40,804 nt of DNA from Flavobacteriales bacterium (GTDB taxonomy: Bacteria > Bacteroidota > Bacteroidia > Flavobacteriales_D > Cryomorphaceae), in the NCBI GenBank assembly GCA_022448105.1, contig JAKVAV010000001.1, forward strand, positions 16,231-57,034, in the 5' to 3' direction. Numbering within the stretch: the first letter of the stretch is position 1; the number at the start of each line of letters is the position of its first letter. The translations under genes were made by a program, and so were the position numbers. The notes below the pieces were generated by a model. It was not told the DNA's origin, did not search any database, and saw only the letters and a list, made by a program, of their open reading frames with translations. Below, one piece after another: positions 38,608 through 40,804 of the stretch.

Positions 38608-39888
38608 ATGAAAAGATACATCCTCAAAAAAATCAGCTACGGAATACTAGTGCTTTGGGGAGTGGTGACCTTAGTCTTTACCATTTTTAGTATAAATCCT
38701 GGTGATCCAGCCGCTATGCTCCTTGGTCAGCGAGCCGACGAAGAAGCAATAGAGCGGGTGAGGAGAGAACTTAACCTTGATCTACCATGGGAGAAACAAT
38801 ACGCTCTTTACATCAACGATATTAGTCCGATTTCGCTACACAGTGAAACTCTAGAGAGTAGAATCTACCTAGACAGTACCAAGTACAATTATGTTCGGCT
38901 CATTGATTTTGGCAACAAGATTTTAGTAGTCAAAACTCCTTATCTACGTCGCTCCTACCAATCGAAGAAGCAAGTAAGTGAGATCATAGCCGAAGCAATG
39001 CCAGGAACGGTTGTCTTAGCTATTGGAGCGATCTTCTTTGCTCTTGCTTTTGGAATTCTCTTAGGTGTCCTCACCGCGGTTCACAAAGGGCGATTCATTG
39101 ACGGTTTTTCACTTTTTGCTGCCGTATTAGGAATGAGCGCTCCATCTTTCTTTAGTGCAATTATTATATCGTGGGCAGGTGGTTATCTCTGGTCGGTACA
39201 AACCTCACTTCCTGCAATTCCGATAGTTTTGGGCTTAATCTTTTTGGCAGTTTCGTTCTTTCGAAAACCTCGAACTTGGATTAAGTCAACGGAATGGTTG
39301 ATCAAAGGAATTCTTTTAGGTCTATCTCTCATTGTCGTGAACTCTTTAACCGCTATGGCTTTTGATTTCAACTTTTTACTATTCAGTGATGTCGCGATAA
39401 CCCTTCCGGGAACTGGATTAGGAATGACTGGTTCACTTTATGACATAGATGTCTTTACGGGAGAATATTTGGCCTTGAGCAATCTCATCCTACCGATGTT
39501 TACTCTCGGTATTCGTCCGTTAGCCATTGTGGTGCAACTTACGCGAAATGCACTACTCGAAGAACTTTCCAAAGACTATACGAGGACCGCGAGAGCTAAA
39601 GGGCTTTCTTCAAATACAATTGTATTCAAGCACGCTTTGAGAAATGCGCTAAATCCAGTGGTGACGGCAGTGTCGGGTTGGTTTGCCTCGATGCTTGCAG
39701 GAGCTGTTTTTGTTGAGTTTGTGTTTAACTGGAAAGGTTTGGGGCTACAAGTGTTTCAATCCTTACAGAATGATGATTTTCCAGTGGTGATGGGAAGTGT
39801 GCTGGTTATTGCGGCGAGCTTTGTGGTGATCAATATTTTTGTTGATGTGATTTATGGTTTGCTCGATCCGAGGGTGAGAGTAAGTTGA
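38608..39888 (+). CDS. DppB-type peptide ABC transporter permease, enlarged
   Basis: A 426-residue membrane subunit of a peptide or nickel type ABC importer. The family start is YILKKISYGILVLWGVVTLV with TIFSINPGDPA, and the EAA loop that contacts the ATPase is YTRTARAKGLSSNTIVFKHALRNAL, followed by GAVFVEFVFNWKGLGLQVFQ. DppB-type permeases are normally about 310-340 residues; this one has about 90 more. One insertion enlarges the first periplasmic loop (about 60-130); the other (about 200-260) adds roughly two extra membrane segments, around PAIPIVLGLIFLAVSFF and GILLGLSLIVVNSLTAM. No ATPase, binding protein or second permease is found in the window. The substrate is unknown. Confidence 0.9.
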   Translation: MKRYILKKISYGILVLWGVVTLVFTIFSINPGDPAAMLLGQRADEEAIERVRRELNLDLPWEKQYALYINDISPISLHSETLESRIYLDSTKYNYVRLIDFGNKILVVKTPYLRRSYQSKKQVSEIIAEAMPGTVVLAIGAIFFALAFGILLGVLTAVHKGRFIDGFSLFAAVLGMSAPSFFSAIIISWAGGYLWSVQTSLPAIPIVLGLIFLAVSFFRKPRTWIKSTEWLIKGILLGLSLIVVNSLTAMAFDFNFLLFSDVAITLPGTGLGMTGSLYDIDVFTGEYLALSNLILPMFTLGIRPLAIVVQLTRNALLEELSKDYTRTARAKGLSSNTIVFKHALRNALNPVVTAVSGWFASMLAGAVFVEFVFNWKGLGLQVFQSLQNDDFPVVMGSVLVIAASFVVINIFVDVIYGLLDPRVRVS

Positions 39889-40041
39889 TGTATTCACGTC
39901 AAGTCATATTTATCAAGAAATATATCATGTTCGAGCTAGATGAATTTTATTGGTAGAGCTACCTAATCACTTCTCTGTCACATCTAATGATTTTGGTGAG
40001 GTACAAGCCAAAATTTTGTCGAGACGCGGGGTTTGGTGAAT

Positions 40042-40164
40042 GGCTCTGTCAGTTCGAGTGAATTTTACGATTGAAATGAGTAAAATTTTTATCGAGAACA
40101 TGACCACCATAATGGTTCTCGATGGAATTTTTCGTTCCTCGAAATCACTCGAACTGACATGGCC
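40042..40164. repeat. Large nested inverted repeat (double hairpin) upstream of tpiA
   Basis: The outer arms TGTCAGTTCGAGTGA (40047-40061) and TCACTCGAACTGACA (40145-40159) are perfectly complementary over 15 bases; with wobble and short flanking matches the arms extend to 40042 and 40164. Inside, ATCGAGAAC (40091-40099) and GTTCTCGAT (40115-40123) form a second perfect 9-base stem with a 15-base loop. Between outer and inner stems the two sides carry related AT-rich runs (TAAAATTTTT against GGAATTTTTCG). Nothing in it is coding. The rest of the 374-base gap from 39889 to 40262 holds only this element and the tpiA promoter box. Confidence 0.85.
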
Positions 40165-40218
40165 GTTTTGGTCTGCTAACTCTATATCATTTGATCACTC
40201 ATAAAGCATGAGGAAAAC

Positions 40219-40226
40219 TATATTTG
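40219..40226 (+). promoter_or_regulatory. Putative -7 promoter box of tpiA
   Basis: TATATTTG is a full match. Transcription near 40233 would give a leader of about 30 bases. A TTTG at 40190-40193 is 25 bases away, too far for a standard -33. Confidence 0.45.
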
Positions 40227-40262
40227 CGGAACATATTGAGAATGACTTAATCAAAGATAACC

Positions 40263-40804
40263 ATGAGAAAACCGCTAGTTGCAGGGAATTGGAAAATGAA
40301 TAAGAATCACGTTGATGCGAAAAATCTTTTGCAGGCATTGGTAGATAGATCAAATGAGATTCCGAGCGGAGTGGATGTGATGGTGGCACCACCTTCTTTA
40401 TACCTCTCAGAGATGGCAGGAAGTGCTAACGATTCTGTTTTGGTCGGTTCTCAAGATGTTAGCTCTCAACAAAATGATGGAGCTTTTACCGGAGAATTTT
40501 CAGCGGCGATGCTCGCAAGTGCTGGCGTAAAGTATGCTATCATTGGTCATAGCGAAAGACGTCAATACCACGGTGAGACCGATGATTTGATTCGTGAAAA
40601 AATTGCTGCCTGTGTTGTGGCTGGAATTAGTCCGGTTTACTGCTGTGGCGAAGTGCTCGAAGAGCGGGTGAGTGGTGATCATGTAGAAGTGGTGTCTGGA
40701 CAAGTGACAACGGCCCTGACTGGCTTTACAGCAGATGAGCTTAGTGACTTGGTCGTCGCTTACGAACCTGTTTGGGCCATCGGAACTGGTAAAACAGCCA
40801 CGGC
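40263..40804 (+). CDS. tpiA: Triosephosphate isomerase (partial, cut by the window end)
   Basis: The first 180 residues of a TIM-barrel isomerase that interconverts dihydroxyacetone phosphate and glyceraldehyde 3-phosphate in glycolysis. It begins MRKPLVAGNWKMNK (catalytic Lys11), then SQDVSSQQNDGAFTGEFS, the catalytic His96 in YAIIGHSERRQYHGE, and the catalytic Glu168 in VVAYEPVWAIGTGKTAT, where the window ends just in the flexible loop 6. About 70 residues are missing. The start ATG at 40263 gives the canonical N-terminus. The neighbourhood folP, DUF1599, DoxX and tpiA is, as I recall, conserved in Bacteroidetes, here with a permease and a decayed nuclease gene in between. Confidence 0.97.
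   Translation, partial: MRKPLVAGNWKMNKNHVDAKNLLQALVDRSNEIPSGVDVMVAPPSLYLSEMAGSANDSVLVGSQDVSSQQNDGAFTGEFSAAMLASAGVKYAIIGHSERRQYHGETDDLIREKIAACVVAGISPVYCCGEVLEERVSGDHVEVVSGQVTTALTGFTADELSDLVVAYEPVWAIGTGKTAT

Follow-up and report, generated by a model that had tools for sequence, protein, structure and literature searches.

The stretch of DNA surveyed in this study, referred to here as the window, comprises 40,804 nucleotides of a Flavobacteriales genome. An inverted structure of 113 nt was found at 40047-40159, in the gap between a permease ORF (38608-39888) and tpiA (from 40263). A preliminary description of this DNA had placed the structure between genes, in agreement with these ORF boundaries, and had read it as a nested double hairpin spanning 40042-40164. 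The perfect 15-nt and 9-nt stems of that reading are present, but the parse adopted here is different: the two stems are the tags of two inverted copies of one unit, each with its own hairpin. The element proper is limited to 40047-40159, and the excess forms part of a weaker stem, found by folding outside the repeat proper, between 40039-40046 (forward strand) and 40160-40167.

The two units are arranged head to head, with their tags outermost. The forward unit (40047-40099, forward strand), which contains the exact search pattern, consists of a TGTC tag, CAGTTCGAGTG, a variable hairpin and TATCGAGAAC; the reverse unit (40115-40159, reverse strand) carries the same tags, with CATCGAGAAC at its inner end, and encloses a different inner hairpin. 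With a covariance model termed R1 they scored 58.9 and 48.8 bits, respectively, both being among the 37 units used to build that model. The outer arm with its TGTC tag, 40047-40061 (TGTCAGTTCGAGTGA, forward strand), forms the perfect 15-nt inverted repeat with 40145-40159 (reverse strand), and the inner arm, 40091-40099 (ATCGAGAAC, forward strand), forms the perfect 9-nt one with 40115-40123. The variable hairpin of the forward unit (AATTTTAC/GTAAAATT, 40061-40087, forward strand) was recognized in both the stem listing and the single-strand fold, and a 15-nt spacer (40100-40114) separates the units. The order in the window, TGTCAGTTCGAGTG, hairpin and TATCGAGAAC, follows a general formula of a [C/T]GTC tag, CAGTTCGAGTG, a freely varying hairpin and TATCGAGAAC.

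Folded as RNA, 40035-40175 reached -57.3 compared with a mean of -31.1 kcal/mol (z -6.6), and none of 200 dinucleotide shuffles folded as well. As single-stranded DNA, 40047-40162 gave z values of -7.5 and -7.8 for the two strands, while each unit folded alone was unremarkable (z -1.4 and -0.9). An Rfam scan of the window found no family at gathering score for the element, the sole match being a tRNA elsewhere. Adjoining the dimer upstream, a possible decayed third unit (TGTCACATC..., inner stem ATTTTGG/CCAAAAT; 39976-40029, forward strand) scored 13.2 bits with R1 (E 0.11), below threshold and too weak for a claim. Outside the element, 59 nt beyond it, a TANNTTTG box (TATATTTG, 40219-40226, forward strand) is a possible -7 box for tpiA; such boxes number 38 in the window against 33.8 expected, no significant excess over chance.

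The design of the units is unusual, with two constant tags placed around a wholly free hairpin sequence whose pairing is kept across families of the order. Among the 37 units, 96.5% of cells were paired under the structure given above, compared with 34-55% when the partners were slid, and the covariation score was 0.479 against 0.085-0.141 for slid structures. Changes on both sides of a pair were counted in 69 cells (17.8 in shuffles). At seven inner positions the two arms of the same unit paired in 62-97% of cases, arms taken from different units in 34-54%. The tags belonged to the pattern by which units were selected, unlike the inner hairpin, so the covariation test is a fair one for the hairpin; compensatory changes in the tags comprised GT/AC, CT/AG and CA/TG. 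A dimer in the pgi-fba gap is common to the genome of the window and to the same-genus genome G001 at an orthologous site (L007 1500-1558 and L181 1469-1592), and in an alignment inspected by eye the inner hairpin of its second unit was wholly different between the two genomes.

The preliminary description had pointed to interspersed CAGTTCGAGTG/TCGAGAAC repeats in Flavobacteriales, and these were recovered by both pattern and model searches. Two instances of the pattern CAGTTCGAGTG-N(20-50)-TATCGAGAAC are present in the genome of the window. The exact pattern with N(18-46) was found in 19 of 150 related genomes (this one included) from five families, and a reversed-pattern control gave no hits in the 150. 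A scan of public genomes returned at least 118 stretches, and the titles among the matches listed were of Flavobacteriales or other Bacteroidetes, with one exception labelled Candidatus Dojkabacteria that is possibly a misbinned contig. Model R1, built without nested outer units or duplicates from arrays, matched 17 of the 18 genomes scanned, the majority of which had been chosen because of known units. The copy-number check suggested at the outset gave at least five matches in the genome of the window, compared with at least 23 in G001 and a maximum of at least 51 in G059; these counts are lower bounds, from up to 150 first-look candidates scored per genome, and include nested pairs twice. 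In G105 and G123, composite copies of about 90 nt lie at unrelated loci with homology confined to the element, and three locus pairs are orthologous and filled in both.

The element is therefore not a single copy kept at one locus, the case in which a local role had been favoured. Its own genome holds at least five matches, and none was found in the syntenic gap of G001, where the permease and tpiA stand in the same order across a gap of similar length; in G002 and G005 that gap is a few bases. The absence from the G001 gap indicates an interspersed repeat and not a regulator of tpiA. In three Tenacibaculum genomes (G299, G300 and G301) the matches numbered 66, 73 and 51, respectively; those listed were almost all to the dimer segment, and some Tenacibaculum copies form tandem arrays of about 145 nt (L288 5770-5955). 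Four near-identical units of G001 are set inside long low-complexity repeats of GGTCAGTGG type (L175 1519-4714).

The arrangement of units was surveyed on 173 model hits from 84 sources, neighbours within 120 nt being simply paired. Tags-out (head-head) pairs, as in the window, were the commonest dimer with 21 cases, and 13 tags-in (tail-tail) and seven tandem (head-tail) pairs were also counted. Thirteen units were nested in the hairpin of another unit, all 13 of them inverted. Many nested copies were noted in one genus, g31 (L115, L117, L118, L121, L122, L124, L125, L127, L128, L129 and L131). The units make up 106 clusters, of which 10 were not placeable, and 92 of the 96 placed clusters are located outside ORFs longer than 150 aa, as called mechanically.

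These clusters tend to lie closer to the 3' than to the 5' ends of genes: a distance within 60 nt was seen for 42 of 97 flanking 3' ends and for 20 of 87 5' ends. This bias, together with the strong RNA fold, would suit a terminator or an RNA-processing or stabilising structure for the permease transcript, a role that had also been considered in the preliminary description. We regard such a role as unlikely. A consensus scan of 39860-40320 found no terminator-like site and thus lends it no support; the element begins about 160 nt past the permease stop, and the same-genus gap lacks it. A position mostly downstream of genes has, moreover, been reported for REPs in general (Di Nocera et al. 2013; PMC3733652). 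Any effect of the window copy on permease read-through RNA is probably incidental at most.

A MITE moved by a DDE transposase by way of the 15-nt terminal inverted repeats would account for those repeats and for the dispersal, and one Tenacibaculum dimer does sit in a larger inverted element. This was found in two Tenacibaculum finnmarkense genomes (96% identical over the matched flanks) in which one locus measures 732 bp and 57 bp, respectively; the extra DNA is the larger element holding the dimer, so the locus is no clean test of a filled against an empty site, and comparison of the two genomes gave no clean pair of this kind. The target duplications proposed as a check were absent, with 4-9 bp duplications at none of 21 dimers, although 3-bp direct matches at the dimer ends were seen in three of the 21 (0.35 expected). 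MITE families share their centres, whereas the inner part here varies freely under conserved pairing, and single units, tail-tail pairs and head-tail arrays are found as well. An origin of this kind appears quite improbable. Two other candidates were set aside: palindromes flanking the dimers, striking by eye, showed a complementarity of 0.315 compared with 0.279 for crossed pairs, and a K-turn reading of the CGAG/CGAG motif was dropped by inspection, the bulge being wrongly placed.

A candidate partner emerged from the genes that surround the units. When ORFs around 80 of the at least 118 loci were clustered, a small GIY-YIG protein was found in six loci, second to response regulators, which are a large family, in seven. 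In five of the six, units occur on both sides of the gene, one of these loci (L264) being probably from the same genome as G034; in the sixth (L273) the gene was not shown by the ORF filter used. Thirty PF01541 loci contained 29 R1 hits, in seven of the loci. Two of the proteins tested match PF01541 in Pfam and have no match to an NCBIfam model, and the solved relatives found for these GIY-YIG proteins were UPF0213 proteins only.

A profile (A3) of ten GIY-YIG proteins, most of them selected for their position next to units, was run against 299 genomes of the order; the 30 top-scoring loci were then examined for units at E up to 0.01. Taking a split at 126 bits, set after the scan, units were present at 15 of the 17 loci at or above it (12 on both sides, three on one side) and at one of the 13 below it (Fisher P 1.7e-5), that one at E 0.01; among the one-sided loci of the top group, L347 has a single weak hit (E 0.008). 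With seed genomes excluded the figures were 9 of 11 and 1 of 13 (Fisher P 0.0005), and in genomes whose GIY-YIG flanks had previously been unexamined, units were found at five of seven loci. When these 30 proteins were placed in a tree, 12 of the lower-scoring rows, one with a unit, formed a firm sister clade (support 100/99). Of the 18 rows outside it, 15 have units; the tree does not unite them firmly (44/85), and one lower-scoring row falls on the side of the 17 top-group rows. In an earlier tree of 13 rows the two sets were fully separated.

Units are also locally dense at these genes. In six genomes, picked as array carriers, the density at GIY-YIG genes exceeded the genome mean with Poisson P of 1e-14 to 3e-6 (E up to 0.01), or of up to 4e-4 (G123) when nested pairs were counted once. 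A 13-mer common to both flanks was found at 20 of 25 usable GIY-YIG loci, 11 of 26 Y1_Tnp loci and none of seven TpiA loci; as Y1_Tnp loci share it too, this measure alone is a weak one. Across genomes, the exact pattern was present in 8 of 11 with a top-group gene compared with 11 of 139 without (P 2e-6, assuming that all 150 are among the 299 drawn). No top-group gene was found in 11 of the 19 exact-pattern genomes, including that of the window, nor in G001 with its at least 23 matches, which fits, without proving, a readier loss of the enzyme than of its repeats. The genome of the window (92.7% complete) gave no match to the A3 profile at 1e-15, so that its copies look like relics.

The anatomy of the units (a tag, a hairpin, inverted dimers, an intergenic setting and tandem arrays) resembles that of REPs mobilised by RAYT, a Y1 tyrosine transposase whose classes are treated in PMC6006769. 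The tag is [C/T]GTC instead of GTAG, however, and Y1_Tnp genes do not accompany the units. R1 units were found at none of 30 Y1_Tnp loci, 14 of which are in exact-pattern genomes; Y1_Tnp genes are present in 9 of 19 exact-pattern genomes compared with 10 of 11 scanned genomes without the pattern, and neither the genome of the window nor G001 has one. RAYT was accordingly rejected as the partner and is very improbable as the mover of this repeat. A local regulatory cruciform for tpiA, in keeping with the position of the element 59 nt ahead of the possible -7 box, is barely credible given that no R1 match occurs at the tpiA loci of six relatives, the same genus included, even at E up to 1, and that the repeat recurs at unrelated genes.

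Of the three readings offered in the preliminary description, that of a non-autonomous mobile repeat is the best. Very probably, the window holds two copies, tags out, of a [C/T]GTC-tagged palindromic repeat that is non-autonomous, interspersed in Flavobacteriales and linked to a GIY-YIG nuclease, and they survive here as a relic. This reading draws together the observed anatomy and covariation of the units, their dispersal, their absence from the orthologous tpiA gap and their presence around one group of GIY-YIG genes; the dimer of tagged units and the flanking of GIY-YIG genes in relatives were absent from the earlier account. The nuclease would recognise the tags on a single-stranded hairpin, for example on the lagging strand or in incoming DNA, and would nick there; in genomes with the enzyme, now or in the past, the repeats may thereby spread or be maintained. 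The window copy itself is probably an immobile relic. Against this reading stand the lack of 4-9 bp target duplications and of a clean pair of filled and empty sites, the exact-pattern genomes without a top-group gene, and the second rank of GIY-YIG in the ORF clustering.

The loci described here share several features with REP/RAYT REPtrons, the carriers of GTAG REPs, namely a nuclease-type gene flanked by repeat copies, inverted dimers, and the lack of the gene in some genomes that keep the repeat. They differ in having a GIY-YIG protein instead of a Y1 HUH enzyme, and [C/T]GTC instead of GTAG. GIY-YIG single-strand nucleases (Ssn) with cognate repeats (NTS) were reportedly described in 2025 from Neisseria and elsewhere. 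These too are reportedly small single-domain GIY-YIG proteins whose cognate repeats are scattered in the genome, and a single-domain GIY-YIG gene flanked by the repeat is likewise seen here, in relatives and not in the genome of the window. The phylum and the repeat family are different from those of Ssn/NTS, and cleavage is a proposal in the flavobacterial case. That report probably covers the principle; if so, the principle is known and the flavobacterial repeat is a further variant. Among the papers searched, none joined GIY-YIG with 'repetitive extragenic palindromic', and none of those listed dealt with GIY-YIG and such repeats by title and abstract start; a search on the tag strings found none on bacterial repeats by title among the matches listed.

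CGTC-tagged REPs were defined by Di Nocera et al. (2013; PMC3733652), where they are stated to be apparently without a dedicated transposase, their carriers include Bacteroidetes and G. forsetii, and the Neisseria dRS3 is classed as CGTC-1. The flavobacterial repeat resembles them, as they are characterised there, in having a [C/T]GTC tag at one end (TGTC in both window units, at 40047 and in the inverted one; most of the 37 aligned units carry TGTC or CGTC), and in being palindromic, intergenic, mostly arranged in tags-out dimers and apparently unlinked to a Y1 transposase. In that survey the REPs have a stem of 8-9 bp beginning with AT, a loop of 4-5 nt and mostly a CCA tail. The flavobacterial unit, by contrast, is longer, with a long variable hairpin between conserved CAGTTCGAGTG and TATCGAGAAC; it has no CCA tail, and it forms nested inverted pairs. 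The A after the tag faces a T in only 9 of the 37 units, and the next pairs are G-C/C-G and T-A/A-T. Since the tag, dimers and location are shared and the stem, loop and tail rules are not, the repeat functions as a CGTC-tagged REP would and is a variant of these REPs, no strict member.

Other repeats were also found beside GIY-YIG genes. The lower-scoring genes are often flanked on both sides by other repeats, by a measure whose background is high at Y1_Tnp loci; in L359-L371 these are palindromic, for example CTTTCGAGAGCCTCAAGC (L367) and CTACGCTCAGTC (L365), and L357 is likewise flanked by CTGAGCGGAGTCG. On plasmids, the GIY-YIG gene has [C/T]GTC-tagged simple palindromes on each side in 4 of the 15 loci scanned (from 42 matching records); at most 0.12 were expected per locus, and control tags gave a single hit overall. 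These four represent two lineages of alphaproteobacterial genera, Shinella (L390 and L401) and Sphingobium (L391 and L402).

The survey of 2013 closed by asking which enzyme, if any, moves CGTC-tagged REPs (PMC3733652), and the flavobacterial loci, like those of the two alphaproteobacterial genera, suggest a single kind of enzyme. We tentatively propose, as a possibility that we would not yet back, that the GIY-YIG group may be this missing enzyme, forming a REPtron in which GIY-YIG replaces RAYT. It would read the two fixed tags on a single-stranded hairpin whose sequence it leaves free to vary, and would drive both the spread of the repeats and their dimeric, nested and tandem forms; in Bacteroidota and Alphaproteobacteria, each repeat family would have a GIY-YIG group of its own. 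The question of the mover is now testable with small proteins (about 96 residues), each paired with its own repeat.

Other GIY-YIG genes, including one in the genome of the window (L334, G000:C6:14155), were found beside repeated tRNA-gene-like pieces. These measure 75 nt at 80% identity in L334 and 41 and 21 nt in L317, and L332 shares the read-through start of L317. All three loci have the look of an insertion into a tRNA gene with duplication of its end.
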